Assembly: GCF_041381155.1 (NCBI RefSeq)
Contig: NC_091140.1
Span: forward strand, 27,189,952 to 27,253,951
DNA length: 64,000 nt
Source: Argopecten irradians
Lineage: Eukaryota; Mollusca; Bivalvia; Pectinida; Pectinidae
Direction of reading: 5' to 3'
In this document: one piece after another, positions 40,368-61,337 of the stretch
Numbering within the stretch: position 1 is the stretch's first letter
How the letters are laid out: the number at the start of each line of letters is the position of its first letter
Translations under genes and position numbers: made by a program
The notes under the pieces: generated by a model
What the model saw: the letters and a program-made list of their open reading frames with translations, nothing else
Database searches by the model: none
What the model was told of the DNA's origin: nothing

Positions 40368-40398
<31 letters not shown>

Positions 40399-43300
40399 GG
40401 ACATAGTCATTCAGATCCCCTGCTAATGGGGATATCAAAGCTGAAGTAAGTTTGATTGTGGAGACTTATGTGTATGAAAAAAAACAGGAAAAAGGAAGTT
40501 GAGCTAAAGAAAGATGGAGTATAATTCAAGCAGAGCGGGGCTGCAATTGTTGAATCAGGTATCAGCCTTGACATTTATATTAGAATATATACACAAAGAT
40601 GGGTGGAGTTTTGCAAAGTAACATTTACCATGATATTTTCAGCAATGTTTCTATGGCAACGGAAAAAGTGCAAAAAATGAAAACCTTAAAATAGCAAAAA
40701 GCACTACTAGACCATAAGACTAATGTGCATATGGAGTTCCGTGCATATATCTCAACCGGTTTTCCAGTTATGCTGCGGAAACGAACCTGGTACAAAAATA
40801 TGATATTTTCAGCAATGTTTCCATGGTTATGGAAAAAGTGCAAAAAATGAAAACCTAAAAATAGCAAAAGACACTACTAGACCATAAGAACAATGTGTCT
40901 ATGAAGTTTCATGGAAATATCTCTGCTGGTTTTAGAGTTGTGCTCCTGAAACGATTCTTACACAAAAATCTGCCATTTTCAGCAATGTTTCCATGGTTAC
41001 AGAAAAAAGTACAAAAAGTGAAAACCTTAAAATAGCAAAAGGCACTACTACACCATAAGACCAATGTGTCTATGAAGTTTCATGGAAATATCTCTTCTGG
41101 TTTTAGAGTTATGCTCCGGAAACGAACCTGGTACAAAAATATGATATTTTCAACAATGTTTCCATGGTTACGGAAAAAATGCAAAAAATGAAAACCTAAA
41201 AATAGCAAAAGGCACTACTAGACTATAAGACTAATGTGTGTATGAAGTTTCGTGGGAATATCTCTACTGGTTTTAGAGTTATGCCTCCGGAAACCATTCG
41301 TACGGACGGACGGACGGACGGACGGAACCCATTTGTATATCCCCTGCCAACTTCGTTGGGCGGGGGGTAATAAACTTACAGCTACTTTTTATCAAAATAC
41401 GCCTATTCTTTCAATTGAGAATTATAAATTGTTATAATAATGTTTTTTTCCCCTCAAAATGAAGATGCTGGCTCAGTTATACATACGACCATCATACATA
41501 CTAGTCCAAGAAAAGGATGTGATTACGTGAATGAACGTGTAAAATCAGATATTTAGATAATATATTGTATAAATTTCTGGTAAAACCTATAATCTAGCTA
41601 GAACAAAAGTAGCTTCATAAACACTGTATCTAAAAATACAAGTTATTTAATTGACAATTTTAATTGTCCATGCACACTGTTGGGATTACTTTAATTTCAT
41701 CCCCCATATTACAATTTAATGTTAGTAATTGTAAGGTTCCATATGGCATCCAGAAAATTCATTCATTTATTTATTTCAAAATGAATATAAGTTATACCAC
41801 AAATTTGAATATACTTGTATTTGTAAGGTTATACTGGTTATATGATATATGTAGTTATGTATACAAAGGTACCATCATGAATTCCAGTTGATAGCACATA
41901 AATAAATCCACTTCAATTTAATCATGAAAAAGACACATTTTCTGTTTGATTATGCTTGTACTTTTTCAAAAAAGTGTACCTGTAATAATTTCTTCAAAGA
42001 GAACTAATAAGTACAATTTCTAATACCTGATGATAATTTTTGTCAATGTATTGATAAATTAATTAACTGAATGGCTACATTTACTGAACGGAACATATCA
42101 GTAAACGAGATGAAATATTTCATCTAAATGAAAGAAAATAATGATGCCTTCTGTTCATTTATTACGTGGAAAATATTGATTTGGCTTAAAATTGTATATA
42201 CAGCAAAGACAGCCCCTGTATATTGTAATTTGTTTTGTGTGTGTTGTGGGAGGTTGTGGTGTATACATTACATGTATTCATGTTGTGTCTCTTTGTGATA
42301 GTACACTTACCCTTTTTATTTACTGCTATCTCACTAAAGCATGCTATCAAAGAGTAGACATTATACAGCACCCAACACAGTAAGTCACATTATAAGGGCA
42401 CACCGTGTCAAAAGGGCACTATTAAAGTGCGAAGCACTTCTTAGGTAACAGTACAATGTACATGCATGAAAATGTAAGAGAAAACCCAATCTTCAAAATT
42501 CAATCCTACATACTGACAGCTTCAGCAGAAGCTCAGTGCTAGCCTATATTGCTCTTTATTTGCAAGTGTTCAAGTCATTTAGACCACATTCCATATAATC
42601 AGCTGAACAAAAACGGATATCTATTATAGAAATAAATTTTCTTTCTTCTCAAATGGATGTTTTCAATTGGGACAAGGATAGAGTGTGAATATAATAAATG
42701 AATAAATAAAACAGAAAATTTGGCTCCGTTATTTCCAAAAATTGCACTTTAAAGCATAATTCTAATGGTAATTGAAATATCTGGCTACTGACACATCTGG
42801 CTGTGCCCTTAAAAGCTATATTTCATGTAATTTCATGGTAATGATATATATGTCACTTAAACATTTGATATTTGAACATGGACATGTAACTTTATGATTT
42901 AGCTCTCCAAAAGCTTAAACATTTGATATTTGAACATGGACATGTAACTTGATGATTTAGCTCCCCAAAAGCATATGTCGGCCTATAAGAGAGCCGAAAT
43001 TTAGGGATCATATATTCCTGGTTTTGAATAAAGCGCCTTTAATCATTGCCATGTTCAGTACCTTCGGGTTTTGTCGGAATTTTGAATTGTGTCATGTAAC
43101 TGAAGTCTACACGACCTACATGTGGTAATCCGGGTAACTAGCCTAAGCACACATGTGTTTGTTTACGTTTTCCTACTGGCTAATATTAGCGAGTATTTGA
43201 AACATCTAATTCACACATTGCCGTAATTCAATATTGTGTGTATCAAATATTGTAATATGCGAGCATTATTTTCTATGTTATTTGTAGATCCAGTCTGCAG

Positions 43301-44059
43301 AAGTCGACCCAAGTTTTGTTTACGAAAAATTGTTAACGTTTTCTCTTGGTTTCACAACTCTCGAGATCATGATACTTCGAGTTGTCGCAATGATGTTCGG
43401 AAGAGTTCAGAATGATTCGGCATCTTTCGAGCCAATTTTTCAAGTGCACATATATTTCATACTTTTATAATTAAAAATACTTCCAGTGCTGCAACTTTAC
43501 AAAAAGTGGTAAAAGTAGATAGTTTAAACCTCAGACAGACAGAGTAAAATGTGTATAACGTTTACACAGTTTTCTCTATGACAAAAAGAGCGAAAAAGAT
43601 AGACCATACAACTTTAAGGATTTGCCTTCATGTCAAAGTCTGGTGTCAGGGCCTGAGTTTCTCGGGCTAGCTCTGAGAGCACTGCAATAGCTAATTAATC
43701 TTTAGTTTAAGATTTCCTCACACGCATTGTACCGAAACGACCTCACACAATCAAACAGAAAGCAGTATTGTATTATAGAGGAGCGGAATTTAGATCAAAC
43801 AATGACATGATCACTGATAAAATAAGCAGGAAAGATGCCACATTACACCGGATGCCACATTTACACTTTACCGGTAGATTCTAATTCGAAGAATAACTCG
43901 CAAATGCATTACCACAAAGATGTGTATGCATTTCAGTTTCTCAAGAGACGTGTTTTTGCATAAAGATATTACCTCCTTTTTCTTTGAAGCGGACGAACAA
44001 ATGCAGAAAACGGCAAATATGGAACAGGCAAAGAGAAGATGTTTCATGTTGGCAGCCAT
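2574..44059 (-). CDS. TUSC3: TUSC3/MAGT1 (OST3/OST6) oligosaccharyltransferase subunit, split gene, one exon not found
   Basis: This gene encodes the ER-membrane thioredoxin-fold subunit of the STT3B-type oligosaccharyltransferase, which by family knowledge forms transient mixed disulfides with substrates so that nearby sequons can be N-glycosylated; vertebrate paralogues are also linked to magnesium transport. Visible parts in order: a signal peptide (residues 1 to about 25, [18 protein letters not shown]), a lumenal thioredoxin domain with redox CxxC (CSVC, residues 83-86) and the cis-proline region ([15 protein letters not shown]), then four membrane segments, ending GYPYSFLFK. Coding exons run from high to low: 43973-44059, 21893-22065, one missing, 11183-11265, 10136-10193, 9354-9494, 8748-8837, 6450-6513, 4071-4145, 3629-3719, 2574-2589. 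Found exons total 878 nt against roughly 1,008 in human MAGT1. The invertebrate gene should predate the TUSC3/MAGT1 split, so the symbol is a convenience. Confidence 0.93.
3039..3529 (+). mobile_element. family-B non-autonomous element, 168-bp tandem core
   Basis: The left end carries ACAAGAGCTGTTGGAGAACA with a GCTGTT/AACAGC hairpin, followed by AGCTCGCCTATTC. A core unit of 168 bp is present twice (starting at 3111 and 3279) with a short third piece. Then comes a (GACGCC)n stretch and a perfect terminal hairpin CCTATTC-TTC-GAATAGG followed by CGAGCTAAAAA. Hairpin plus CTAA recalls Helitron 3' ends, but that family assignment is only inferred. No coding capacity. It lies in the last intron of the TUSC3-like gene. 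Confidence 0.65.
3629..3719 (-). CDS. TUSC3: TUSC3-like exon 10 (fourth membrane segment)
   Basis: Acceptor TTGTTTCAG, donor AG|GTAGGAAC. With the single A carried from the previous exon it reads [20 protein letters not shown] followed by [10 protein letters not shown]. This is transmembrane segment 4 and the conserved FRSKYxGYPY tail of the family. 91 nt, entering in phase 1 and leaving in phase 2. Confidence 0.95.
4071..4145 (-). CDS. TUSC3: TUSC3-like exon 9
   Basis: Acceptor AAAATCAG, donor CGAA|GTAAGTGT. The leading AT joins an A from exon 8 to make asparagine, giving [20 protein letters not shown] and then SGKKR. This aligns with human MAGT1 NGGVTLGMVLLCEA followed by the short loop before the last membrane segment. 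75 nt. Confidence 0.93.
4161..4201. promoter_or_regulatory. four AAGGTCA motifs at 11-12 bp spacing
   Basis: AAGGTCA occurs at 4161, 4173, 4184 and 4195 on the plus strand, about one helical turn apart. AGGTCA is the nuclear-receptor half-site. The cluster lies only 15-57 nt upstream of the exon 9 acceptor of the TUSC3-like gene (minus strand, where it reads TGACCTT), so a short tandem repeat without regulatory role is the simpler reading. Confidence 0.4.
5217..5404. repeat. 96-bp direct duplication
   Basis: A segment beginning AGGATCTATCTGTAAGGTAT is present at about 5217 and again at about 5313, nearly identical over some 80 bp. Intronic; no function seen. Confidence 0.8.
5701..6013. repeat. 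40-bp minisatellite, eight copies
   Basis: GTCTTCTGATGACAAGTTAG recurs at 5711, 5751, 5791, 5831, 5871, 5911, 5951 and 5991, an exact 40-bp period with very few substitutions, so it is recent or well homogenised. It lies in an intron of the TUSC3-like gene. Confidence 0.95.
6450..6513 (-). CDS. TUSC3: TUSC3-like exon 8
   Basis: Acceptor TTTCCAG, donor TTGA|GTATCC. Translates to [20 protein letters not shown] plus L, near-identical to the human [18 protein letters not shown] segment leading into membrane segment 3. An alternative donor a few codons on (TTAG|GTAGCT) was considered, but only GTATCC gives a phase that joins exon 9. 64 nt; too short to be seen as an ORF. Confidence 0.92.
6652..6828. 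mobile_element. short pogo/Tigger-like MITE
   Basis: Left end TTGGACCAATTGAAAATCC and right end GATTATCAATGGTCCGCTG are imperfect inverted repeats, about 175 bp apart, with GGTCC and ATTATC motifs common at pogo/Tigger ends. TA is present near both flanks. No coding content. Confidence 0.5.
7279..7706. mobile_element. MITE (about 430 bp) inserted in an AT-rich tandem repeat
   Basis: The ends CAAGGATTTATAAG... and ...CTGATATACGTCCTTGGC form imperfect inverted repeats of about 24 bp. TATAAC flanks both sides (7273-7278 and 7707-7712), fitting a target duplication of about 6 bp. The flanks are copies of a roughly 45-bp AT-rich repeat (about 7195-7278 and 7707-7760), so the pre-insertion site can be inferred. 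A 64-codon open frame inside resembles nothing known to me. Confidence 0.6.
8748..8837 (-). CDS. TUSC3: TUSC3-like exon 7 (second membrane segment)
   Basis: Acceptor TATTTTCCAG, donor ATC|GTATGTAC. Reads [20 protein letters not shown] then [10 protein letters not shown], almost identical to the human [22 protein letters not shown] block. 90 nt, phase 0 on both sides. Confidence 0.97.
9354..9494 (-). CDS. TUSC3: TUSC3-like exon 6 (first membrane segment)
   Basis: Acceptor TTGTTGACAG, donor GCCCTA|GTAAGTATG. Reads [20 protein letters not shown], then [20 protein letters not shown] and FWGIGAL. The IRVxRPPNY motif and first transmembrane segment are hallmark features. 141 nt, phase 0 on both sides. 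A partial look-alike of its start lies about 57 nt upstream (9551-9575). Confidence 0.97.
9551..9575 (-). pseudogene. duplicated fragment of TUSC3-like exon 6 start
   Basis: On the minus strand this encodes RPPNYPGT, against RPPNYSGT in exon 6. Of 25 aligned bases about 19-20 match, and the codons for R, P, P and Y differ only at third positions. The frame extends upstream to an AG acceptor-like site in phase 0 with exon 5 and closes about 12 codons later at a stop. It could be a decayed alternative exon or a poison exon; chance similarity is not excluded. Confidence 0.45.
10136..10193 (-). CDS. TUSC3: TUSC3-like exon 5
   Basis: Acceptor ATTTCAG, donor ATTCAG|GTATTG. The first G completes an arginine codon begun as AG, then [19 protein letters not shown] follows. 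This aligns with human GFSAEQIARWIADRTDVN, the last helix of the thioredoxin domain. 58 nt. Confidence 0.96.
11183..11265 (-). CDS. TUSC3: TUSC3-like exon 4 (cis-proline loop)
   Basis: Acceptor TTTGTTTGCAG, donor CACAG|GTACACAA. Reads [20 protein letters not shown] and then SDTMDIHR, aligning with human [24 protein letters not shown] contains the thioredoxin-fold cis-proline. 83 nt, entering in phase 0 and leaving in phase 2. Confidence 0.97.
11440..11600 (+). repeat. dispersed repeat copy 1 (GTGTCTCCTTGTGATAG / ATCTCNCTGAAGCA type)
   Basis: Contains GTGTCTCCTTGTGATAGAGG twice in tandem, then TATAGTGCTATCTCCCTGAA. Similar phrase order recurs at 42231-42385 and 62085-62240, which defines a dispersed family of about 150 bp. 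Its class is not clear; it could be a SINE body. Confidence 0.55.
12445..14045 (+). mobile_element. family-A non-autonomous element with 157-bp tandem core
   Basis: The left end ACAAGAGGCCCAGAGGGCC contains a GGCCC/GGGCC hairpin and CTCACCTGG. A core unit of about 157 bp follows in roughly eight and a half copies (TCTAGGACAAG-type landmarks at 12669, 12827, 12983, 13140, 13297, 13454, 13611 and 13768). A GGACGGACGAC stretch then leads to a terminal hairpin, AGCTCACCGGCCC-TTC-GGGCCAGGTGAGCT. The design resembles bivalve pearl-type, Helitron-related elements; that link is inferred. Open frames inside it follow the repeat and are not genes. Confidence 0.75.
14118..14354 (-). mobile_element. degraded pogo/Tigger-like fragment
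   Basis: On the minus strand it begins CAGTGGAACTTGGTTGATAC and contains repeated AACTCGGATAAT phrases, a style typical of pogo/Tigger-related short elements. The other inverted repeat was not recognised, so this is a fragment. Confidence 0.4.
14765..14970 (+). repeat. second, corrupted copy of family-A 3' end and its flank
   Basis: 14765-14862 repeats the end of the family-A element (TATGACAAAGAAGCGATTTA, then GTTGACGG, GCCGCCCATGGCATTAGCTC). 14897-14970 repeats the flank found at 14039-14115 (AAAAATGAAAAAAATGTATA). Stretches of the neighbouring satellite (AAAGATAAGAAAAT) are spliced between them, which looks like a mixed consensus or a very messy duplication. Confidence 0.55.
14971..21745. 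repeat. large satellite, 34-bp units grading into 40-bp units
   Basis: The right half (about 17.8-21.7 kb) is a 40-bp unit, AAACTCGTCATTGGCTTGTC + TACAAAGATAAGAAAATAGT, in long perfect runs (for example 18890-19240 and 20080-20480). The left half (about 15.2-17.8 kb) is mainly a 34-bp unit (AACTCGTCATTGACTAGGGA...) with very frequent small gaps and hybrids. Both share ACTCGTCATTG. Minus-strand frames reading [15 protein letters not shown] are products of the repeat. The exon 3 interval of the TUSC3-like gene includes this array. Confidence 0.95.
21893..22065 (-). CDS. TUSC3: TUSC3-like exon 2 (redox CxxC)
   Basis: Acceptor CACCCTGTCACCTC... region ending CCTCAG before GTGGAC; donor TGTAG|GTCAGT. 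Reads [57 protein letters not shown]. RxNGDxF, NYSVxVMxTAL and the CxxC (here CSVC) are diagnostic for the OST3/OST6 family. 173 nt, entering in phase 0 and leaving in phase 2, so the missing next exon must be 1 mod 3 in length. The frame stays open upstream to an ATG at 22216-22218. Confidence 0.97.
22066..27227. other. left part of TUSC3-like intron 1
   Basis: No conserved coding sequence was recognised. The stretch is AT-rich with a GAT/TGA microsatellite near 26085-26255 and A/T runs around 26275-26320. The short open frames present have no family resemblance that I can see. Confidence 0.6.
26085..26255. repeat. imperfect (GAT)n microsatellite
   Basis: Runs of GATGATGAT interrupted by TTGTTT and ATTGATTGATGAGGA, strand-biased towards purine plus T. 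Confidence 0.85.
27228..27484. mobile_element. MITE with perfect 13-bp terminal inverted repeats
   Basis: The ends are CATACTTGCCAAC and GTTGGCAAGTATG, exact inverted copies 257 bp apart. CAGTGT occurs directly outside both ends; read as GCAGTGT(C/G) it fits an 8-bp hAT-type target duplication with one difference. No transposase. Confidence 0.8.
28681..28968. mobile_element. MITE with TGTGCCGG ends
   Basis: Left end TGTGCCGGACATAGCGAAA and right end (reverse complement) TGTGCCGGGCATAGCGCTA are inverted repeats about 288 bp apart. No clear target duplication and no coding capacity; family unknown. Confidence 0.55.
30674..30813. repeat. 22-bp palindrome-bearing minisatellite, seven copies
   Basis: The perfect palindrome AGTGCACT starts at 30674, 30696, 30718, 30740, 30762, 30784 and 30806, exactly 22 bp apart, within CTAGTGCACTAGAGTTAAC-type units. 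Looser copies precede it near 30624. Intron 1 of the TUSC3-like gene. Confidence 0.95.
31518..33148. mobile_element. hAT-like DNA transposon, non-autonomous
   Basis: The left end CAGTGGCGTAGC and right end GCTATGCCGCTG are 12-bp inverted repeats with two differences, 1.63 kb apart. CAGTGGCGTAGC is a common start for hAT-superfamily elements, and the GGGGCTTCGC/CCCCAGG motifs near the right end fit. AATAA borders both ends. No transposase is recognisable; the longest open frames (about 65-72 codons) look random. It contains a strong hairpin at 32464-32535. Confidence 0.6.
32464..32535. other. 72-nt foldback hairpin
   Basis: TAACAATTAAAGGATT and AGATTGCATTTAT are followed, after a 7-nt loop, by their inverted copies ATAAATGCAATCT and AATCCTTTAATTGTTA, with only a small internal bulge. 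Size and shape resemble an miRNA precursor, but the near-perfect symmetry also fits a recent inverted duplication inside the hAT-like element. Confidence 0.6.
33289..33429 (+). repeat. DIRS-type left inverted terminal repeat
   Basis: Runs from TACCATAACTTTAGTATGC to GGTCTCCCTTCCTC and is repeated inverted at 39125-39263. Confidence 0.92.
33503..33605. repeat. DIRS-type internal complementary region
   Basis: The first half (to about 33562) is the inverted copy of 33246-33297; the second half is the inverted copy of about 39240-39281. In DIRS elements this region is thought to template circle closure of the terminal repeats. Confidence 0.88.
33807..34941 (-). other. DIRS-type tyrosine recombinase portion
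   Basis: Part of the retroelement. It carries an N-terminal core-binding-like region ([22 protein letters not shown]), [11 protein letters not shown] with the first catalytic arginine region, and a C-terminal HEVRALAA (HxxR motif) followed by a candidate tyrosine in FTDFYLR. In DIRS elements it overlaps the upstream frame and integrates the circular DNA copy without making a target duplication. Confidence 0.85.
34710..38693 (-). other. DIRS-type Gag-like, RT, RNase H and methyltransferase-like frame
   Basis: A long frame of 1,327 codons. Residues 17-45 hold a Cys-rich cluster (CPLCRPC, CELC), followed by a Pro/Gly/Ser-rich Gag-like part. Reverse transcriptase runs from about residue 720 ([16 protein letters not shown]) through YFDD near 848. 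RNase H spans about 1010-1120 ([15 protein letters not shown] to LADTLSR). Then [12 protein letters not shown] and AYAFPPF (about 1159-1195) match the methyltransferase-like region typical of DIRS. Other long frames on either strand here are shadows of this one. Confidence 0.9.
39125..39263 (-). repeat. DIRS-type right inverted terminal repeat
   Basis: Inverted copy of 33289-33429, ending GCATACTAAAGTTATGGTA. The two copies differ at only a few positions by eye. Confidence 0.92.
39451..39489. repeat. short perfect hairpin
   Basis: GTCAGAGACATA and TATGTCTCTGAC are 12-bp inverted copies with a 15-nt AT loop. It resembles the end of a short inverted-repeat element; no function seen. Confidence 0.6.
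40368..40395. repeat. (AAT)n microsatellite
   Basis: About nine AAT units, just upstream of the family-C element. Confidence 0.9.
40413..41373 (+). mobile_element. family-C non-autonomous element with 170-bp tandem core
   Basis: The left end has an ATCCCC/GGGGAT hairpin (40415-40433). The core unit of 170 bp is present about four times (AGCAATGTTTC-type landmark at 40641, 40811, 40981 and about 41152). A (CGGA)n run at about 41302-41327 leads to the hairpin CCCCTGCCAAC-TTC-GTTGGGCGGGG and a TAATAA tail. Same plan as families A and B but unrelated sequence. No coding capacity. Confidence 0.7.
42231..42385 (+). repeat. dispersed repeat copy 2
   Basis: GGGAGGTTGTGGTGTATAC, then GTTGTGTCTCTTTGTGATAG and GCTATCTCACTAAAGCATGC, in the same order as in the copies at 11440 and 62085. 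Confidence 0.6.
42394..42810. mobile_element. MITE with AAGGGCACA ends
   Basis: Left AAGGGCACACCGTGTCA and right (reverse complement) AAGGGCACAGCCAGATGTGT form gapped inverted repeats about 417 bp apart, and an inner pair (TTAAAGTGC) is also inverted. Family unknown. Confidence 0.45.
42857..42972. repeat. 58-bp direct duplication
   Basis: TTAAACATTTGATATTTGAA... is present twice in tandem with a 58-bp period and two or three differences. Confidence 0.85.
43973..44059 (-). CDS. TUSC3: TUSC3-like exon 1 (signal peptide)
   Basis: ATG at 44057-44059, reading [20 protein letters not shown] then CSSASKKKE, donor AAGGAG|GTAATATC. The hydrophobic core and small residues before the lysines fit a cleaved ER signal peptide. 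KKKE joins exon 2 in phase 0 to give [12 protein letters not shown], like human KKKEMVLSEKV. 87 coding nt. Confidence 0.9.
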
Positions 44060-45952
44060 TATTCTAAACGTGTATATAAGAATTCATTTGATTGGATAAT
44101 TTTACGAACGACCAATGAGTGACTAGTTAACAAAACGGCTTCGCCAGTGGTATTTCATTCGGAATGCCTTTGGAGTATTTCATTCGAAAGATAGTAATTT
44201 TCCGAAATCAGTTATTATTCCGAACACACTAAAAAAAGTGAAATGAAACTGAAGTTTGGAAAGTTTTAGATTTCTTGTGATGTTGTGAATATAGTGGCTT
44301 TTAGGAGCAAGTGACTTTGATCAATTAACTCTCTACAAACAAGGTAATTATTGTGCAACTAAATCAAAACACACGTTTTACATTAATCGAGCAAACGTTG
44401 CCATTGGTCAGTTGATCTGATGACTGCAGAAAGTTTCAGAACTTCTGACTGTGTGATGAACTTGCATTAACTTTAGTTCAGATTGGTTTTGCATACATAA
44501 TCGTGTATTATGGCTATAGTGTAGCTTAATACAAATTTATTTATTTAACTTTGTATACATGATTCATATTACTTCAAGGTAAGTAAGACGACACTGAGCA
44601 CTAGGCCTAATTGTCAGTTGGATGTAGTACCATAGTTAACCCAATAAACACATAACAGTTACTTCCCCCCAAATATTGCAAGTCTGTTACTTAATTAATT
44701 TATGGTCAACATTACTCAGCATTGTGGAGATCCATGTAATTTAATGACTAGAGGCTCAGTTTACAAGTCTAAAACCATGACTTTTGACGTTGAATATTTT
44801 AATTTATTAAGTATTTATCCAAATCTTAAAGAGACAATTCACTCAGGCTAATTCTTTTACATAACCAAGAAGCAAAATATAGCATAAATGTATTGTTCTA
44901 CATTTCTTATGAAACATATAACGTAAAACGTTGACAAATTCCACGACATTGTTAAGTATTTTAATTAATATCGTTGAAATATCAAATCGTTGATCAATAC
45001 GATTAAGCAGGTACAATATGGACGCTGTACCCATACCCGAGCCAAAGTCACGCACGTTAAACAAATGAATTAAATAATCACTGAGAAGGCGATAAAATGA
45101 TTTTTAGGCAAGACAATTCACCTAATAAGGTAAACACACTACTGTCAGAGCGATTTGAGCAGTTCTAGACAAAAGCTGCATTACTCTACGAGCAAGGGAC
45201 AGGGTTCGGCATACAAGAAGTTTGACCACAGTGTGTAATGGCGGACAGCGAGCGAGTTTTGAACATCTACACACATGTCACAACCATGGGCTTTTCAGGC
45301 ATATTACAGTAAAACCGATTGATCTAATTCCATTAGAACTATTTTTTTCCGATATATGTACAAATTTTAATGTTCTCTTAGACTGAATTGAAACTTAAGC
45401 AAACGTGTTTAAAGAAGTTAAAGATACATAATTTAACTGAAACGGCTTTTAAGTTTTAGAATGTATTACACTGTAAATGAGTTTGATAACTTTGTAGAGT
45501 CCCAAAAGTGAATTCCTAACTTAACCGTTAATTATCATCACTTCCATATTCCTTAATAATTTTAGATAGGTAATTAGATTTAATTTTCATAACCCAGGTT
45601 GTCTTCTGTTTCCTGGCATTTCCTTAATTACTATATGCAGTAGTTGATAACAGCAAGAGGCATATAATGACATGCCAGGTTTGTTGGTAGAGGAAAGCAG
45701 GAGTACCAGGAGAAAAGCCATCGACGAGCGGTTAGTTACTGGAAATAACCCCACATGGGATTCACACTTGCTATCTCAGAGGTGGAGGGCTTGTGGTAAT
45801 GTGTTTATACATCTTAACCACTTGACCATTGTGGCATCGCTACAATACAGATTGTTCTAATATTCTAATTGTTATTGATAAACTGTTATTTTTTGTTTCA
45901 TATGTATTAACTATTGTAAATTAATTTGAATCATTCATATTGTAGGACAGTC
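44060..45952. promoter_or_regulatory. divergent promoter interval between the TUSC3-like and sarcoglycan genes
   Basis: The two start codons face away from each other 1.9 kb apart. The sarcoglycan ATG exon begins with an acceptor (TATTGTAG at 45938-45945), so its true first exon lies upstream. Candidate 5' UTR donors are AACAAG|GTAATTA at 44343 and the strong TTCAAG|GTAAGTAAG at 44578. If either is used, the two transcription starts could lie within a few hundred bases. No TATA box or binding site was assigned. Confidence 0.5.
45662..45839 (-). mobile_element. tRNA-derived SINE, copy 1
   Basis: On the minus strand it starts with an A-box-like TGGTCAAGTGGTTAAGATG and has a B-box-like AAGTGTGAATCCC about 50 nt later. 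The body phrase appears on the plus strand as GGAGTACCAGGAGAAAAGCC. A second, better copy lies at 61130-61337. The head resembles a Ser/Leu tRNA (GACCGAGTGGTTAAG). The copy sits just upstream of the sarcoglycan ATG exon. Confidence 0.7.
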
Positions 45953-46132
45953 ATGGGTCGTGGAAAATTAGGAAATGGAGAAGTTGTGTCGGAGCCAGAA
46001 TACCACCAACCAGTGGGAATCTATGGGTGGAGGAAGCGGTGCCTCTATAGCTTTATCCTGTTTCTGATGATCATCACAGTTATCAATTTAGCACTCCTTA
46101 TATGGATCCTAAGAGTGCTCAACTTCTCAGTG
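45946..46132 (+). CDS. SGCD: sarcoglycan exon with start codon
   Basis: Acceptor at 45945, ATG at 45953, donor GTG|GTAAGAAA. Sixty codons: [60 protein letters not shown]. An upstream in-frame ATG at 45926 lies before the acceptor and would be intronic, so 45953 is preferred. YGWRKRCLY and WILxVLNF are diagnostic. Confidence 0.95.
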
Positions 46133-49100
46133 GTAAGAAATATTTTTTCTCAATGGTAAGAAAAATTAAACCTTATACTATTTTTGACATAGAAAATAAA
46201 TATTTTCCGAAATCAAGACATGCACAGCAGCATATTCACACTAACTTTGAGTTATATTTTACTCATTCACACCAAAATGAACTAATCCGGCCTTTGAACT
46301 AGAATTTGAAGAATGTAAATGCATCTCCAGAGGTAAATGTCTAGAATTCAGAAATTAAATGAAAATTGATTAAGTTTTAATAATTAATTACTTAAGTTTT
46401 AACTACATTGATGGTTTCAGGATGGTATGGGAAAGATGAGAATTACAGAAGATGGAATCTTGATGGAGGGTGAAGCTGAATTTGTTAAACCACTTTACAC
46501 ATCAAACATACAGGCACAACTAAAGGTAACTTTTAAATGTTACACGTCACAGCAAATAATTTAATGCATTTATGTATAACAGTCAAACTTTTTGTGATGC
46601 CAAGTAGTCATAAAAAAAAGAGTTATGTCTGTAATTTAATGATTTCAAAAATAACATCAACCTGAATTCATTTATGATTTGTTTACCTTTGTTTGTTTAT
46701 GTTAAATTTGATTGAACTTTTAATAATGCACTGTTTGTATCGTATGCAGGATAAACCACTCTTTGTTGAATCAAGCCGGGACATTGTCATGCATGCAAGG
46801 GACGGTGAAAATAATATTGGGAGCACCATAGCATTAGGTAAGATTATAAAATGATAATATTCAACTGAATAGATAGCAAGTTATATTTAATTGTGGAAAA
46901 GGGTCAACAAATGTTTAAAAGTGCAGTATACACAGTAATATACATGTGAATCTTATAAAGATGTAGCAAACTAATGTGCATATAGTAAGAGTAATTTCCC
47001 CTTGATCACTCATTTCAGTACTTTGATATGATTGCCTTTGTAGACTTATGTCATGGCGCAGTGTCCGTCAATATTTCTTTTACTAGTCATAGAGTTCTGC
47101 ATTGAATGTAACCAAATTTGGCCAGACACATACTTGGGGGAAGGAGAACAGAGTTTGTATAAATTGCAGCTATTTAGAATTATTTAGGGTTATTAGCTTT
47201 TTGTTTTGGCATGTGAAGATAAAGTTCTCAGAGCTATGGTGACACTCCCACTGAAAAGTATTCCATTAAAGCTTGATTTAGATATTTTAATAGACAGTAC
47301 GCTGGAAATGATAATTAGGATTCTTCAATAGACAAGATTTGTTTAGGTGTGTGATCTTTCCATGTAATCTTGTTTACACAAAGATTAACCAGCTGTATTG
47401 TTTTACAGGAAACAGAACATTAGAGGCCCAATGTGATAATTTTGAAGTTAAGGATCAGGATGGAAACACAAGGTTCAAGGTCAACAACCGAGAAGTTAGC
47501 ATGGAAGTTGATGAAGTTAGATATACAGGTAATGTGTAATTGAACTTAAACTCATGTGGTAACTCATGTGGTCTGTAATCTAACTAGGTGGGACAGCTCA
47601 ACAGGTCATTACTTATGAACCGTGACTCGAATACTCACAAAAGGTTGCATTCATATGTAAGTTTAGAAGATTGTATTTTTTATATTCTTTTTATATGTTT
47701 TGAGATCATAACCATTTTACATATTATCATTATACAATTCAAGACATAGATCATCATAGTGATTAAGTGAAGCAGAATTATTTAAGTCAGATTTGATTAG
47801 ATTGTCTTACATCTTATCTTTCATTTCCTTGTAGGATCCTCTAAGCTTGTGTTTGAGGGATCTGTAGCCACTCCAACATTAAGAAGTCCTCCGTCGGATC
47901 CTCTCAAGTAAGTTCTACAGAATTAGGGAAGTTTTCAACTCACTCATCACTCTAAGATATGTATACTGTATCTCTAACAGATCAATTGAAAATATAGCAA
48001 GTTGTGTGGACATCATTGGCAGTTATTGCAGTCTACGTATACTATGGTGTTAGACCCAAAAAAATATTATATGTTCTTGTATGAATTTAACAGGATTGAG
48101 TCGCTGGGAACATCTATACGGGTACATGGAGAGACCGGTGTTAATCTCAAGGCTCCAGCTGGCAGCATGCTGATTAAAAGTTCCGACGACATCATGTTAG
48201 AATCAACAGATAACTCCGTAAGTTGTTCTAACTTTGGCTGGATACTTGGAAAATGACTGTGAATAATGAAATATTGCAGTAAAGAAATTTAATATTTTGT
48301 ATTCCATCTTTGCATTTGACAGAATTACCTCCCTTTCGGGTAGGTATCCATTGTGATGTAATTTTGTGAGTGCAACTCGTGCTGTTTCCTCTGAAAAGTA
48401 TGATGTTACCCTCTGAAACACATGATGTCACAATCTATACCTACCCACAAGGGCAGATAACTGTAAAATGCAAATATGAAATAGCTAATGTAATACTTGT
48501 AATGTTTATGGTATAGATACATGTTATTTTAGTCTTAGGCATGGTTCTTTTTCCAGATCTATATACAGTTGTGTGATCTATATTTTATATCATAATTTCA
48601 GATTTATATACAGTCTTTTGATGTGTATCTTACTTAATACTTTCAGATCTATATACAGTTGTGTGATGTGTATCTTACTTTATACTTTCAGATCAATATA
48701 CAGTCTTGTGATGTATATATTACTTAATACTTTCAGATCAATATACAGTCATGTGATGTGAATCTTACTTTATAATTTCAGATCAACATACAGTCATGTG
48801 TTGTGAATCTTACTTTATAATTTCAGATCTATATACAGTCGTGTAATGTGTATCTTACTTTATAATTTCAGATCTATATACAGTCGTGTAATGTGAATCT
48901 TACTTTATAATTTCAGATCTATATACAGTCGTGTAATGTATATCTTACTTTATAATTTCAGATCTATATACAGTCATATGATGTGAATCTTACTTCATAT
49001 TTTCAGATCTATATACAGTCACGAGATGTTTACCTGAAGGGTACAAAAGTAAGTGTACCAAGCGTGGGGCGTCCCTACACTGGTAGTGTGTACCAGCTGT

Positions 49101-49177
49101 GTATGTGTATGAGTGGACGTCTTTATCTGTCCGACCCGAGCGACGACTGCCAGGCCACAGACTCCATATGTCAGTAG
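45953..49177 (+). CDS. SGCD: sarcoglycan (delta/gamma/zeta family), complete coding region
   Basis: Seven coding exons, 45953-46132, 46421-46525, 46750-46837, 47409-47528, 47835-47907, 48094-48217 and 49007-49177, sum to 861 nt (286 residues plus stop), close to human delta-sarcoglycan. The protein is a type II single-pass membrane protein of the dystrophin-glycoprotein complex in muscle. Visible: cytoplasmic tail with [11 protein letters not shown] (residues 22-32), membrane segment about 31-54, an ectodomain with an NRT sequon (126-128), and the family's C-terminal cysteines (262, 264, 278, 285). Vertebrate delta, gamma and zeta arose by duplication, so this gene should be orthologous to all three. 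All introns are GT-AG. The last acceptor is embedded in a 45-bp tandem array. Confidence 0.95.
46421..46525 (+). CDS. SGCD: sarcoglycan coding exon 2
   Basis: Acceptor TGGTTTCAG, donor CTAAAG|GTAACT. Reads [35 protein letters not shown]; compare human [20 protein letters not shown] and FLQPLYAKEIQ. 105 nt, phase 0. Confidence 0.95.
46750..46837 (+). CDS. SGCD: sarcoglycan coding exon 3
   Basis: Acceptor CGTATGCAG, donor TTAG|GTAAGA. Reads [29 protein letters not shown] plus a split glycine; compare human LYFKSARNVTVNI. 88 nt, leaving in phase 1. Confidence 0.92.
47040..47170 (-). repeat. family-A element fragment in sarcoglycan intron 3
   Basis: On the minus strand it reads TTCCCCCAAGTATGTGTCTG, CCAAATTTGGTTACATTCA, TGCAGAACTCTATGACTAG and then the GACGG/CGCCATGAC 3' part. 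It equals about one 157-bp core unit plus the end of the family-A element, without the terminal hairpin. Confidence 0.75.
47409..47528 (+). CDS. SGCD: sarcoglycan coding exon 4
   Basis: Acceptor TGTTTTACAG, donor ACAG|GTAATG. With the split glycine at each end it reads [40 protein letters not shown]; compare human FEVKTVSGKLLFSADNNEVV. 120 nt, phase 1 to phase 1. Confidence 0.95.
47835..47907 (+). CDS. SGCD: sarcoglycan coding exon 5
   Basis: Acceptor TCCTTGTAG, donor CTCAA|GTAAGT. Reads (G)[23 protein letters not shown](K); compare human GTVFPKSIETPNVRADPFK. 73 nt, phase 1 to phase 2. Confidence 0.93.
48094..48217 (+). CDS. SGCD: sarcoglycan coding exon 6
   Basis: Acceptor TTTAACAG, donor AACTCC|GTAAGT. 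Reads (K)[41 protein letters not shown]; compare human VEINAEAGNMEATCRTELRL and ESKDGE. 124 nt, leaving in phase 0. Confidence 0.94.
48319..48464. mobile_element. short MITE with ACAG...CTGT ends in sarcoglycan intron 6
   Basis: Left ACAGAATTACCTCCCTTTCG and right (reverse complement) ACAGTTATCTGCCCTTGTGG are inverted, both followed by GGGTAGGTAT. About 146 bp long. Its terminal AAGGGNAGATAACTG phrase resembles isolated phrases at 25257 and 51702. Confidence 0.6.
48557..49006 (+). repeat. 45-bp tandem array carrying repeated 3' splice sites
   Basis: Ten units of exactly 45 bp abut the last sarcoglycan exon. Each unit matches the first 30 or so bases of that exon (ATCTATATACAGTC...) plus 15 bases ending TTTCAG. 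AG dinucleotides end at 48556, 48601, 48646, 48691, 48736, 48781, 48826, 48871, 48916, 48961 and 49006 (the real acceptor). In the exon frame most units contain TAA; the units at 48647-48691 and 48962-49006 are open. Skipping one acceptor upstream (48961) would insert 15 in-frame residues, [15 protein letters not shown]. Confidence 0.95.
49007..49177 (+). CDS. SGCD: sarcoglycan last coding exon (cysteine cluster)
   Basis: Acceptor CATATTTTCAG, stop TAG at 49175-49177. Reads [56 protein letters not shown]. The CxC-13-C-6-C spacing matches the sarcoglycan C-terminus (human CVCANGRLFL...C...C). The proximal acceptor is preferred because exon 6 ends DNS and human continues with a comparable number of residues to the Cys cluster. 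Confidence 0.94.
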   Translation: MYIQSRDVYLKGTKVSVPSVGRPYTGSVYQLCMCMSGRLYLSDPSDDCQATDSICQ

Positions 49178-52100
49178 TCATGGCTACAGTGGCCCTGACA
49201 ATGATATTCACACAGTGAAAGTACAAAATTACTTAAAAAGCAACAAATTCAAGTATATGTCTTCCTTTGTATGTTTTGCAACGTGGAGCAAAATTAAATT
49301 ATCACATCCAGGGTCCTGGTTATAAATCAAGCTACCTGGTATTCATTTACATCATCTTTTACCTCCTAAAAATGCACTGGTCTTTTAGGAGAGGGTAAGC
49401 TTTTAATAGTACCATCATACAGGGTTCTGATAATATTCAAAACTATGTGCAATCGTGTCTCGACTAAGGTAAATCTGTTGTAGTAAAAATGTTGGTTTGA
49501 CAAATTTTGGTATGATGAAGATTTTTGTGCTTAACCGATTACAAATTTTACTCATTATGAAGCATTTAAATCTGTTTTAACAAAGTCACCTAAAGTTGAG
49601 TATAATTTATAATGATATTAGTTATTTCTACAGACTATTGTATAGCTGTAATTTCAAGGAGAATTAGGATAGATTTCTCTTGTGGTAGATTATAAAGTCA
49701 TCGATACTGCTGTTGGTAGTATTGTTTTAGTTATATGAGTAATGGTTGGATGCTATATTTTTCCACCATCAGTTACACCAATACTCAGTCAAACCTGTAC
49801 AGAGAATCAGAAATCTCACAATGTCGTATTATAGTTATATATATAACAGTTGGTCATCTTATGGCCATAGCATAGAAGAAATTTAGTTGAAAACTTCAAT
49901 GCTCATGATTTTTTAACAATTTTGAAAGAATCATTCCAAGAAGGTAAAGTCTAGGTAGTAAATCAAGGAATATGTTTGAATAAATTATGAGCAGAAATAT
50001 ATTATTGTGTGCAAGGAATATGTACCATATGTATTCCTTTGTACAAAATCTAAACACTTATGAGAACAAAACACTACCCCTAGAACAAATATCAATATTA
50101 TTTCAGCTAAACATTGCCGAGAAATTTTGGTAAACATGCCAGTTTTTCAATATTGAAAACAAAAAAATGAATTTAATCATATTGCTATAGGGATAAAAAG
50201 AAAAATTATTTGTTGTATCTATGATTATTCAGAGCCAGTTTACATGATATTGATATGATTACCGACTTGATATTGATATAGTTTACCATAGATATAAAAT
50301 GTACTCGATAGATTATGTTTCCGCATTATATTCTGGAAATATGTTTTACAAGCGATTGTATCAGGAAAAAGAAATGAAAGAATGAACAATTAGCGGTATT
50401 ATATAAATAGTTATAATATTGTGTCAAGTGTACAATGTACTTGGCAAGACAATGGCAATAAAATATATGTTTTTTATAGCGAGGAAATTTGTAGTATATA
50501 TGTAACTATTTAGGAAGGTTTTTTTTTTCATCTAGAGCTATAACAGTACATAACTAGTTTGTTTATAATGATTACTGATAGGTATGTAATGAATGTGTGT
50601 ACATGTGTGAAAATATTAAAATTGTGTTATGCCATGTATATATTATTTTAGATCTAGTCCTTGCTTTTATTGTTAGTGTTATTTGTATATATTGTCTGTA
50701 TTTATAATACTGTGACCAAAGATTTACATGTTTATAACCATATCATTGCCTCATCTTTTACCCTTTCAACTTTTATCTTTTTTCACCTTTAATTGGTTTT
50801 TTTTAGAAATCAATGTGTTTTATTGACTTTTAAGTTTTCTTTCTTTTTTCTGCATTTTGATTAACAAATAAGCATTGTGTTTAAAATACTTTGTTCTTCA
50901 ATACATAAATTTTTTATTATATTTACCCTGGTAACTATGGGGTTTTTATTGAATGATATGTACAGTAATCATATCCTGATAGGTTAGGTAGTATATAATC
51001 CTGTCAAATGTAGAAATATATATTTCATTTTCCGAAAAGTTTTCTATTTAATAACTTGTTTAAAATAAAATGTAGACCTTGTTAAGATCCATTATTATAT
51101 TAGGATAAGTTTATTAGTGCTACAACCTGTTTTAGTATACAGATTATACTGGCACATACTCCTGTCCACACAAACTGAGATAGTGTATCATACACATTTC
51201 AACAAAGCTGATTCTGTAGTTTCACAATAAACCTTTCCTCCTTACCTTTTGATTTTTTTCATTTTCTAGGTTTCTTTTGAAAAATTAAATTTTGAAATAT
51301 AGCAATTACTATTGAAGTGACAAATATACTTGTAACTTAAAACAAATGATCGTGTTTTTTTTTTGTAATCATTCATTGATTTTTATTGATACTGTGTAAA
51401 CATTTTATAGGGAGAATAGAAATGTATAGATTAAAAGAAGACTTGATATGCACATACAGCAGTGATAGAACTTGCACAGTTGATATTCAGCTAACTACAA
51501 AAGATGCAATGCTAGTTAATATGATATTTTGATGCAGGTATACATTTTCCAACATTTACCGGTAAATATATTTAGTTATAACTTCATAATTAACAGTAGA
51601 GTATGAAATGGGATCCTTTAATTATTATCATGTACATCATGCATGTAGGTGACATTGAATCATATAAAGTTTACAATTTTATACATTTGTATATTAACCA
51701 TAAAGGGAAGTAACTCTTGGCTGAAGATGTTCTTGGATCTGTCCTGGTTCTTGCAATACATGTATAAACCGGTACTTGGTTTTACGTGTTAACTGTGTAT
51801 TTTGTTTTTAGACATTCATCTTTTTTCTTGTTTTTGTACATATAGGGCAATATATTGTGTAATTACCCCATGTGTAACAACAAAAAATTTAAAAGTATGA
51901 AATATTACATTTGAAAGCTTTTACAAATAAATTCAAATTCAAAGTGTCTCAGTGCTAAGGCAGGGTATTAACAGGTATGATTCTCATGACATTTCATCAT
52001 CATTTTTATTCTACTCATTTGTTATTTTTTTAATGTGGAAGATACCACTGTCTTCCAGGAGAAAATGAGTAAGGAATTGATGCCAGATATACATGTAGGC

Positions 52101-52904
52101 ATCAGATCTTCAATTTTACATATATTATGGTCACTGGAATTCAGATGAAGTGCCTTGTGTTGTGTCTATTGTGCCAAAATTTATTGTCCCCAATTCAGTT
52201 TACATGGATATGGATCATGAAGTTATATACCTGTAAATTAAAACTATAGTTTTGATGTTACTTGTGTGCAAAGTTTTATCATTTATTCATTATATGTACC
52301 TGTAATATAAGGATGGAGGTATGTACACAGTGGTTGGAGCTTCTGGTATATTCTATATGACATCTAATATTAATATATAACTGACATTTATAAAATATCA
52401 TGTACAACGAAACGAACCATTGAGGTGTATAGGAAGTCCAGTACTTATACTTTTGGAACGTATCTATATATATCTAGTGATACAGAAGTCTGTAGTTCTA
52501 AGTAGTGTAGGCATAGGGACCTGATAATGGCCATATCCACCAGCACAGGGACCTGAATGTGACTTACAAATATGTAATTATTAAAGATGCTCCACCGCTG
52601 ACAGAGCATAAATGATATTCATCATTTGAACAACAATTGTTTAATCATGTATATATGTGTCTAATTAACACAAAAAATAATATAAAATTATTAATTTTTC
52701 CTTTGTTGTATGGGCAATCAGTACTTCATTCCATATAGGATATAGTGTCACAGAATTTTTTCGGGATGCATTTAATTATTTTTTATATTTTTAGCTTAAA
52801 AGAAAATTAGAAGTTCAAACATTTCAATGGTGGTAATGGTGTAACTGAAGAAACACGTTATCACAATCAGCATATAGGGACTGAACACAACTGTAAACAA
52901 ATGA
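49178..52904. other. sarcoglycan 3' UTR and intergenic DNA
   Basis: No further coding exon was recognised. AATAAA hexamers at 50457-50462 and 51226-51231 are candidate polyadenylation signals; sequence alone does not decide between them. The stretch is AT-rich with poly-T runs near 50521 and 51355. Confidence 0.55.
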
Positions 52905-53600
52905 TATATCTCAACCAGCATAGGGCTTTGTCATAAATATAAGACATCTTGACCTGTACAGGAACCTAGAATAACTAACTACTGAAAATAGGGGGAAAAA
53001 ATAGAAAACGGAAGACATCTCGACAACCACAGGGTCTTCCTGACTAAACTCTAAACAAATAAGACATCTTAAACAGCACAGGGACCTGGCATACCTATGT
53101 ATACACAAATAAGACATCTTAACCTGCACAGGGACCTGACATACCTATACACAAATAAGACATCTTAACATGCACAGGGACCTGACATACCTATACACAA
53201 ATAAGACATCTTAACATTCACAGGGACCTGACATACCTATACACAAATAAGACATCTTAACATGCACAGGGACCTGACATACCTATACACAAATAAGACA
53301 TCTTAACCTGCACAGGGACCTGACATACCTATACACAAATAAGACATCTTAACATGCACAGGGACCTGACATACCTATACACAAATAAGACATCTTAACA
53401 TGCACAGGGACCTGACATACCTATACACAAATAAGACATCTTAACCTGCATGCACAGGGACCTGACATACCTATACAAAAATAAGACATCTTAACCTGCA
53501 CAGGGACCTGACATACCTATACACAAATAAGACTTCTTAACATGCATAGGGACCTGACATACCTGTAAACAAATTATACATCTTAAGCAGCACAGGAATT
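52905..53600. repeat. 46-bp minisatellite, about a dozen copies
   Basis: The unit CACAGGGACCTGACATACCT + ATACACAAATAAGACATCTTAACATG repeats with a 46-bp period; units are uniform from about 53090 to 53560 and degenerate at both edges. Confidence 0.95.
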
Positions 53601-56600
53601 CTATATTTGACCAGATAAGTGCCTAGGATGCTTTGAAAATTGAGTGAATTAAATTAAGACACAAAATTAATCCACAAAGTGCTAAATTTTTTATAGTGTA
53701 CCTATAATGCAGATTTAAATTCAAGAATTGGATCTTGTTAGATCATAAAGGGAATGAGGCACTTATACAGACAGAGAAGCTTATTGGGTCGAATATGTTG
53801 AGTATTGATATAGGACATCCCAAATAGCATAGAGACATGACATTCATATTAACAAAGGGAAGCTCAATCAGTGACCGAATAGTACTAATGAAGAAAAGGA
53901 AAATATCTTCCACAACACAGGGCTTTCTATGATTTATTTTGTTTGGTATACACTTTGAATGTTGTAGAATTCAAAGTGTAACTGATGTCATTGTGGAATG
54001 AATACTAGCAATACCAAGAGCATGACTAGAGATATAAATCAGACCTACATCCAGTAACACTGTCTATGACAGGTGTTAGTACATGTAATGTCCTTACAGT
54101 TAGTTTCTGTGTCATTCTGTCTTCACACGTACACCAAGGCTATATTGATTTCTAATTAGTAATTACGTTATGTGATTTGGTTCCAGAACAAAGATTTATG
54201 TCCATGTTTGTCAGGTTGGAAGTACTGATAATGTAATTTAATCTTCTTTATCGACATGAAAGGGGGCTATACAGAAAATACTCTAAACCGTGTAGACATG
54301 CAGTAGTCATTAGCTAGTAAGTAGTACATTTATACATGTACTTTTATATTCACTTCATACTCTGGTTTTATATAACTATTGATACAACAGTGGGCAACAG
54401 AAATATTTCAGAAATGAACATGTATGTATGGCTATGTATAATCCCGAACAAAGGCATGCTAAAGCTGTATCTGGGAGCCTCATGGCCCATAACCTGAAGA
54501 TTATAGACATTAAAAGCTATTTAGGAGTCTAGTGACTTGTGTAGTCAAGCTTAACCCAGTTTCCACAACCTGTGTTGATGACTGTGTCTATGAACCTTCC
54601 TACCAGTAGTATGTTTGTACCTGCTTTTGTTTTTGTTGGTCAGTGGAATGGGACAACAAAATAAACACATTGAACATGGAATTTTCATTGTGAAGAAGTT
54701 TTCATTGTTTTCATGGTTGTTTTGAATCCACGAAAATAAAACCCAATGAAGTTTATTCAAACTCACCAACAAATATTTCTGTCCAAGTTGAAACTTTAAC
54801 ATATTCGGCCTATTAAACACCCCCGTCCCTATAAGTCCCCCTCCCCTTTATGGAGCCTCAATTTCATTAACACTAATTTAAATACAGACTAAAACTATGA
54901 AAAACCTTGAAGATATCTCTATTTGATTTCTTTTGTAAATTTTGATTAATGGCCTACCTAGTGCTGTATTTGTATGAGATTTGGTCCCATTAGCGTCCTT
55001 TCAGTTTTCAAAAAAATTTTACCACCCTAGGTGCTTATTGGATGAATACGGTAGCTATGAATGAAAGAATCTACAAGTTACATGGCTACTGAAACATCAT
55101 ATAAACAGTAGTATGTGAATTATAAGTGCCAGGTACTACTTTGTGACCATCTTAGGTCTTATTGCATTACTGACTTAATATTTTAGTTTATAGTCTAGGA
55201 ATAGAAATGTTGCTTCCTCACCATTTATTGGATTGATTTGTAACTAAAAACTTAAATTTTCAAGATGAGTTAGTTATAACATGTACATGTATAAGGAGTT
55301 CTTCTAGATAAATATTTGTACACTCGGAGAAAATTGAAGCTTGTCTGAGAAACAGCCATGTCACAGACACCTTATTAGTTGAAGGTAGACTATAATGGCT
55401 GTCGTTATTGTTTAATCAATATGTATGTAAAATAGCCCTGAAATACATCATGAAGATGCCCTATACATGTCCATTCTTTAACCCAGACTCATAATGACTA
55501 TAAATAGTTTCCTATTTCAATAGAACAAAATTTTAGTGTTAATATTGTATATCTACCTCGGATGTAATACAGGTGCTATGAGGAATACTCTCAGATTTTA
55601 GTATTATATAACCAGTGTGATTTATTACAGGTTCAGTGTGTGTAGATAAGGTTTTTAAGGCAAGGATGTGTTACTAAGTGCATAAATGGTACTATACTAT
55701 ATTTAGCCATAGAATACCATATCAAAGACATTTAAATCAATTTATTGTTCTCCACATACATTGTATATGTACTTTACAATTTGATTTATTCATCACTTAA
55801 AACTTGAGGATCAGAAAGGTATACTGTATCTATATGTTAGATTATTCTACAACCAAACAAATAAGTTTACAAATCAATCTACTTAAATTATGTATGCTTC
55901 TTTTTTATGTTACTAAAACTCCACATTACAATGAAAGAAATTTCCAGAAGAAATGATTCATTTTTGTGACTAAAACTTGATAAGGCTTCCATTTGTAGTT
56001 ATTCCTGATTCATGTTTATTAATCAAATTTAAAGAGGCACAGTTGAATAGAAAGGAGTAGAAAGAAGCCTTTTTATTGAGTCATTCCTTCTGGCCATATG
56101 AAATGGACACTTGGCTAACCTAGATGTTAGGGTGTTTTTGTGTCTGTGTGACAATATGTTTCCATCAGCTGGTGGCTGAAGTATGTCGATCAATATCTCC
56201 TTACAACAGCTACCTATCACAGACACATGTGCTGCTGTTTCTCCGAAATAAAATTCAAGTAGTCTTTCTTTGTGCAAACTCACTCAGGCAATTTATGTAG
56301 TTATATTAGTACATTTAATTGTGACATAATGTTTTAATCTACAAAACATGTTTTGGCAATTGACAATCTGTCGTTAATTAGTAAATCAATAAAAATAGAC
56401 GAGATGAAATGCATACAGTATATCTAGTATATAATATAATATTATAATGAAATTTAATTTAGCAAAAAAGCCATTTTCTCTGATAAATTAGTCTTAATAA
56501 TATGGTGCTGAAAAAAGAAGGCTGTATTTATTGGTGTGAGACTTGCAGTAGAATCAATAATGACACACTAGGTGTTATAGGAAGGGAAAGTGCTAATTAG

Positions 56601-57599: not shown

Positions 57600-57604
57600 C
57601 CTCT

Positions 57605-60105: not shown

Positions 60106-60220
60106 GACTCTAGATTAACTGTACTATAGGTACTGTATCATGAGAGCCGACTGGTCAGCTGATTTCTTATCAGACATTATTGTGCTAATGTGATTAAAAT
60201 TATATGCATGTGATGTATTG

Positions 60221-60301
60221 ATAACCACACCGTTTCAGTAAACCTGCTCTCTGTTAGACCTGATGTAATAGAGAGTGAGTTTACTGAAACAGCGTGGATA
60301 T
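60221..60301. ncRNA. candidate miRNA-precursor-like hairpin
   Basis: ATAACCACACCGTTTCAGTA/AACCTGCTCTCTGTTA pairs with TAATAGAGAGTGAGTTTACT/GAAACAGCGTGGATAT across a 9-nt loop. Arms are 36 nt with about four mismatches and three G-U pairs (plus-strand RNA). Size and imperfect pairing fit a pre-miRNA. A short inverted-repeat element is the main alternative. I do not recognise a known miRNA. Confidence 0.4.
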
Positions 60302-61129: not shown

Positions 61130-61337
61130 GATTCCTTTCTTTCTTTGTTTACTTTAATGTCCCATTAACAGCTGGGTCATTTAAGGATGTGTCATGTTTA
61201 GACAGAGTACCCAGAGAAAAACCACCAAGCTTTGCTCAGTACCTGACAAGTGCCCCAGATGGGATTCAAACTTGTGACCGAGAGGTGGAGGGTTTGTAAA
61301 ATGTGGAGACATCTTAACCACTCGGTCACCATAGTTG
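61130..61337 (-). mobile_element. tRNA-derived SINE, copy 2
   Basis: On the minus strand: GGTGACCGAGTGGTTAAGAT (A box, Ser/Leu-tRNA-like), then GGTCACAAGTTTGAATCCC (B box), then a body whose plus-strand form is GAGTACCCAGAGAAAAACC and TTAATGTCCCATTAACAGCT. The 3' end is an AAAG-rich tail. Open frames over it are not genes. Possibly one of the SINE families widespread in molluscs. Confidence 0.8.

Follow-up and report, generated by a model that had tools for sequence, protein, structure and literature searches.

A 45-bp minisatellite that copies the last 3' splice site of a scallop sarcoglycan gene is probably a neutral mirage-type array

The window analyzed here is a 64,000-nucleotide stretch of the Argopecten irradians genome (NC_091140.1, positions 27,189,952 to 27,253,951, forward strand) with a G+C content of 35%. 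It contains a gamma/delta-type sarcoglycan gene whose last intron ends in a minisatellite of 45-bp units that repeats the 3' splice site. A first-pass annotation had described this array and suggested that it might modulate splicing. The gene and the array consist of the following features, with positions counted from the first letter of the window.

45953-49177, plus strand: sarcoglycan gene of the gamma/delta type, 286 amino acids, seven coding exons, GT-AG introns, open frame
45953-46132, 46421-46525, 46750-46837, 47409-47528, 47835-47907, 48094-48217 and 49007-49177, plus strand: coding exons in the gene model
48218-49006, plus strand: last intron, phase 0, with the donor gtaagttg after 48217, an AG ending at 49006 and the array at its 3' end
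48540-48556, plus strand: upstream-most copied acceptor, with the C/T-rich tract TTCTTTTTCCAG, unlike the tracts of the other units
48557-49006, plus strand: ten 45-bp units, each of about 29 nt resembling the exon start, then about 16 nt resembling the 3' end of the intron
48962-49006, plus strand: unit 10, open in frame; an acceptor ending at 48961 would add 15 amino acids
49007-49177, plus strand: last coding exon (exon 7), the conserved cysteine-rich end, aligning to gamma- and delta-sarcoglycan with short gaps only

The encoded protein matches Pfam PF04790 (Sarcoglycan_1) at E = 9.6e-70, and its residues 21-275 cover the whole domain (profile positions 2-257 of 259). Six PDB sequences match it. 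Two gamma and two delta chains have E-values of 1.5e-55 to 3.9e-52, the best being gamma- and delta-sarcoglycan of 9c3c (1.5e-55 and 5.5e-55), and two beta chains have 1.5e-5 and 8.8e-5. In the gene model, all six introns between the coding exons are GT-AG, and the model bears out the earlier statement that the last intron is of phase 0 and the frame open through seven coding exons. Because the four gamma- and delta-sarcoglycan chains align across the exon 6/7 junction with short gaps and no 15-residue insertion, 49006 is likely to be the ancestral junction. Within the last coding exon, 42 nt past its start, there is also a GTAAGT donor word preceded by AAAA (49049-49054).

Tandem Repeats Finder (TRF) places the array at 48554-49020, with a period of 45, 10.4 copies, 89% matches, 0% indels and a score of 668. 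A script finds AG at 11 of the 11 expected positions, the G lying at 48556 + 45k up to 49006, and the register is perfect, without indels between units. The eleven acceptors at exact 45-bp spacing and the true acceptor at 49006, both claimed in the first-pass annotation, are thus found as described; 49006 is the G of the AG and the exon starts at 49007. The units share 33-44 of their 45 bases across 45 pairs (mean 86.3%). Their consensus matches exon 7 at 24 of the first 29 bases and then at only 2 of the remaining 16, so that the earlier description of a unit with some 30 bases from the exon and some 15 from the intron is fair. Over the whole window and both strands, the best ungapped match to the 29 bases outside the array is exon 7 (24/29), and the next reaches 20/29. 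The final 16 or so bases of the unit are T-rich with TTTCAG, like an intron end. In 8 of the 11 acceptors there is a CTTAC word whose A lies at -15 relative to the exon; it fits the branch-point motif yUnAy. Because the unit holds CTTAC, a T-rich tract and AG, most units are, judged by their letters, nearly complete 3' splice sites with an exon stub. A second, internal CAG, absent from the earlier annotation, occupies unit positions 10-12 in all ten units.

It is quite probable that the sarcoglycan array is a neutral minisatellite of the kind called a mirage, in which tandem repeats extend over an exon-intron boundary, and that it is spliced mostly or only at 49006; its length is probably variable. 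We infer that a stretch of about 45 bp over the intron 6/exon 7 junction was duplicated in tandem, and that slippage or unequal exchange subsequently enlarged the array and homogenised its units in part. Every copy would resemble a 3' splice site because the unit carries an intron end, usually with the branch-point-like CTTAC, the T-rich tract and AG. All copies are on the side of the intron, and only the last of them has the body of the true exon behind it. We therefore expect exon 6 to be joined to 49007 in most transcripts, the array being removed with the intron. The authentic site would win through its exon context and not by being a stronger site. The upstream edge of the array may preserve part of this history. 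Its TTCTTTTTCCAG tract agrees with units 5-9 at 8 of 12 bases of their intron end and is probably a remnant of the intron end before expansion, whose old exon body now lies at the opposite edge of the array.

Mirages have been described in amphioxus, and an Adh3 mirage was reportedly presented by Canestro et al. in 2002. Splice donors in the minisatellite of IFI6 (6-16) were reportedly presented by Turri et al. in 1995. The amphioxus globin genes BflGb6 and BflGb9 carry tandem repeats over exon-intron boundaries; Adh3 mirage data and globin reverse-transcription PCR suggested normal splicing, and cryptic use was named as a possibility (PMC3087553). A TnC mirage is said to give no aberrant mRNAs, and for a PGBD5 mirage normal splicing was inferred (PMC3902484). 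The sarcoglycan array resembles these cases, since its tandem unit spans the boundary (24 of 29 exon-start bases and an intron end with AG, in ten copies), the copies keep the AG and homogenisation is partial. The authentic exon lies behind the array as judged by protein homology, the gamma/delta-sarcoglycan alignments having no 15-residue insert. The observation made by the first-pass annotation is confirmed, its interpretation is supported in part, and the explanation of the array is largely known already.

There are also differences from the amphioxus mirages. The genes are different, and the arrays in the window are known from one sequence. BflGb6 has 6 and 3 units in two haplotypes, whereas 10 copies are present here and 61-108 acceptor sites, depending on the criterion, in an array next door. 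In BflGb6, the inner units are homogenised and the edge units are excluded from this (PMC3087553). Of this published pattern, only half is seen in the sarcoglycan array. Units 7, 8 and 9 are identical to one another at 43-44 of 45 bases and units 5 and 6 at 43, and the most diverged unit is the one at the upstream edge (mean 35.8/45 versus 38.0-40.3 in the others).

Some points weigh against the mirage interpretation. The downstream edge unit 10, with a mean of 38.6, is not clearly more diverged than the inner units, which differs from the published edge pattern. Length variability is assumed by analogy with published mirages. The acceptors were scored with a small weight matrix by leave-one-out on 14 acceptors of two genes, one of them an inferred 5' untranslated region (5'-UTR) site, so that each was scored by training on 13. 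Genuine acceptors score from -1.25 to 10.41 and 49006 scores 7.10, and the copied acceptors 1-10 match the real ones with 4.24-7.43; the acceptor at 48556 (6.78) comes earliest in the transcript. Because the copies score alike and 48556 precedes the others, the sequence by itself does not show that 49006 is the only acceptor used. The matrix discriminates poorly, since the highest score in the last intron belongs to an AG outside the array, at 48322 (9.68). Leaky use of unit 10 with 15 added amino acids, or of upstream acceptors with truncation, is possible.

The reading frame brings in the alternative that the first-pass annotation suggested, in which the array is a length-variable splicing modulator. 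Upstream acceptors would compete with 49006, and truncated sarcoglycan (acceptors 1-9) or a form longer by 15 amino acids (acceptor 10) would scale with array length. In-frame stops are present in 8 of the 10 units. The annotation was right that unit 10, nearest the exon, is open and that most others carry stops, but it did not name unit 3, which is open too. Its claim that upstream acceptors truncate the protein before the cysteine cluster agrees with the predicted products, which for acceptors 1-9 have 241, 242 or, for acceptor 3, 256 amino acids and end before this cluster. Acceptor 10 would give 301 amino acids and 49006 gives 286. A modulator would be served by these truncations in a kept frame and by the complete set of eleven AGs with similar scores, and for one human gene, IFI6, repeat units acting as alternative splice donors have been described (PMC4526556). 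The globin mirage paper allows cryptic use of copied sites, yet the Adh3, globin and TnC mirages are reported without disturbance of splicing (PMC3087553, PMC3902484).

Constraint on the AGs and on the frame does not exceed the background, which also speaks against a modulator. There is no codon-position bias among the array units (13, 10 and 15 minority cells and 5, 5 and 6 variable sites at positions 1, 2 and 3), and therefore no sign that the units are translated. Conservation of the AG is not in excess either. Although the AG never varies, the same holds for 29 of the 45 unit positions, and the longest run of such positions, 8, is no longer than shuffling leads one to expect (P = 0.37). 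Nor do the copied acceptors stand out from genuine ones by their scores. Coding or regulatory selection on the array was accordingly rejected. In the neighboring gene, an array with a 40-bp period would break the gene if its acceptors were freely used, an argument tempered by the uncertain state of that gene, one exon of which was not found. Since this 40-bp unit cannot keep the frame, no function need be invoked to explain why the sarcoglycan array does so, and 45 = 3 x 15 looks coincidental. Altogether, we consider a splicing modulator unlikely.

A narrower alternative concerns unit 10. This unit could be a real exon extension, alternative or constitutive, that adds 15 residues to the extracellular domain of sarcoglycan. 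It is open and in frame, its peptide resembles the exon start and its AG scores 6.44. Against this, the four aligned gamma- and delta-sarcoglycan chains have no such insertion, and the units, pooled over all ten, drift at all codon positions. Such an extension is highly improbable.

The mirage interpretation of the sarcoglycan array gains both support and interest from the larger array next door, which has the same design. A TUSC3/MAGT1-like gene occupies about 3629-22218 on the minus strand, head to head with the sarcoglycan gene (45953-49177, plus strand). When joined, the later exons of this gene give a match to MAGT1 (6s7t_H) with E = 2.1e-68. The peptide of exon 1 plus one array unit matches TUSC3 at E = 4.6e-21, the query being mostly exon 1. 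Two features of this gene are relevant here.

17829-21738, minus strand: second mirage-like array, directly after exon 1 of the TUSC3/MAGT1-like gene; TRF gives 40 bp x 97.7 with 84% matches
15206-17828, minus strand: degenerate continuation of the second array, with a dominant 34-bp variant unit, rich in indels and possibly of poor consensus; TRF periods 34-159

Of 60 intervals in the second array, 29 measure exactly 40 bp, and their consensus gives the unit, which is ACAAGCCAATGACGAGTTTACTATTTTCTTATCTTTGTAG on the gene strand. This unit opens with the beginning of the following exon (phase 2, R-QANDEF), continues with an intron end and does not keep the reading frame. The frame past exon 1 reads CSVCRQANDE/K, where TUSC3 has CSVCRQANEE. 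Exact acceptor cores, [CT]AG followed by ACAAGCCAATGA, number 61 at 15639-21722 (56 at or above 17829 and 5 below) and 0 elsewhere on either strand. The 16-base core with up to 3 mismatches is found 87 times in the second array versus once in the rest of the window, and a looser pattern gives 108. The upstream flank of the first copy matches the last 19 bases of the unit at 17 positions. From these repeats, we take the TUSC3/MAGT1-like array for a mirage too. Searching the window with a query for the body of the exon behind it (about residues 100-130 of 6s7t_H), expected at 11270-21720 on the minus strand, did not turn it up, and for this reason the junction of the array with its authentic exon is not demonstrated. 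The far end at 14.9-17.8 kb looks garbled, and an assembly fault seems likelier than a lost exon. The human genes TUSC3 and SGCZ are neighbors on 8p22. The head-to-head pair in the window may represent ancient microsynteny; a literature search for TUSC3/sarcoglycan microsynteny gave nothing.

These suspect stretches raise the question of whether the sarcoglycan array was itself inflated or invented by an assembly or consensus artefact. The garbled 14.9-17.8 kb, the C-rich 63.4-64 kb and the missing exon adjoining the TUSC3-like array would be in line with this. The sarcoglycan array, in contrast, is only 450 bp long, keeps a perfect register and has substitutions that differ from unit to unit, and we give an artefact very little credence.

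That minisatellites can multiply splice sites in the form of mirages is little known. Mirages are also an annotation trap, as the unfound exon of the neighboring gene suggests. With two apparent mirages in one window, one of about a hundred copies, near-identical acceptors would compete and AG choice could be tested directly. All mirages found in the literature are from amphioxus, which does not establish their absence from print elsewhere; as far as the literature search reaches, a mirage in another phylum would extend the known cases. Mirages have been proposed as seeds of new introns (PMC3087553). Intron formation from internal tandem repeats is related, as minisatellite-size repeats create or copy splice sites in genes (PMC2812944, PMC3087553), but here no new intron is evident and an existing one is lengthened. 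The IFI6 minisatellite likewise multiplies splice sites and supplies several donors, with alternative sites described as used (PMC4526556); the sarcoglycan array, unlike it, multiplies 3' and not 5' splice sites. Earthworm metallothionein genes have minisatellite-like intron repeats and exon duplications that are missing from transcripts (PMC12783039). They share with the present case an invertebrate gene with repeat-rich introns, whereas no splice-junction array is described in the part of that paper used here. An abalone intron carries a 27-bp minisatellite (PMC6905558). In the parts of PMC6905558, PMC12783039 and PMC3862624 drawn on, arrays built from splice junctions are not described.

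What we take for acceptor mirages, with units of 45 and 40 bp, occur in both adjacent genes, and the sarcoglycan gene has a donor duplicate in addition. This raises the idea, which we hold tentatively and consider doubtful, that minisatellites arise preferentially at 3' splice sites, where a branch point, a pyrimidine tract and an AG lie within about 40 bp, in this genome and perhaps beyond cephalochordates. If it is true, spliceosomes must pass 10 to about 100 serial acceptors, and such loci are natural tests of last-AG choice. The donor duplicate and the further minisatellites are as follows.

46110-46167, plus strand: donor of sarcoglycan exon 1 with a 23-bp tandem near-duplicate, TTCTCAGTG followed by GTAAGAA and then TTCTCAATGGTAAGAA; TRF 46124-46167, 1.9 copies
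53055-53596 (46 bp x 11.6), 57604-60096 (40 bp x 62) and 5697-6014 (40 bp x 7.9): further minisatellites from TRF, at no identified exon boundary

At the exon-1 donor, 19 of 24 junction bases match at a distance of 23, and the near-copy has its own GTAAGAA. In amphioxus mirages, 3' and 5' boundaries can likewise both be hit. The second donor, if used, would shift the sarcoglycan frame.

Whether repeats prefer exon boundaries was assessed with 28 boundaries. One of these is an inferred 5'-UTR acceptor, and another is the first array copy of the TUSC3-like acceptor, used in place of the true one that could not be located. The window is rich in local repeats, in line with the mirage interpretation: at thresholds of 19 and 18 of 24, 17-19% of its first 63000 positions are repeated nearly unchanged at a distance of 15-200 bp. 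By position, the boundaries show no enrichment against circular shifts. At thresholds of 18 and 19 of 24, 3 of 28 lie in repeats versus 5.3 and 4.8 expected (P = 0.72 and 0.69), and at 20 of 24 there are 2 versus 4.5 (P = 0.80). Without the sarcoglycan array, the counts are 2, 2 and 1 of 27 (P = 0.83, 0.81 and 0.90). A test of array births used 15 loci hand-picked from 55 TRF rows (distinct arrays with a period of at least 20, the C-rich end left out). It gave 3 versus 0.34 expected (P = 0.005), or P = 0.042 without the sarcoglycan array. Both tests were made after the fact, and their null models lead to different outcomes; a preference of repeats for exon boundaries is therefore only hinted at.

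To look for genes near the remaining arrays, 22300-32202, 49178-59089 and 59000-63102 were scanned in six frames against Pfam, accepting E-values up to 1; this gave two weak matches below their cut-offs (E = 0.24 and 0.48) and no others. In 1-22299, 32203-49177 and 63103-64000, the scans covered named open reading frames (ORFs) and exons. No RNA family reaches its gathering score in the window, and of two pattern matches to IMG/VR relatives, neither was confirmed. An extreme C-rich low-complexity run extends from 63430 to the window end at 64000. A retroelement at 34120-38726 on the minus strand has a 1338-amino-acid ORF with RVT_1 (E = 3.3e-21) and an overlapping ORF of 277 amino acids without a Pfam match. 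We take this element to be DIRS-like, the shorter ORF presumably resembling a tyrosine recombinase.
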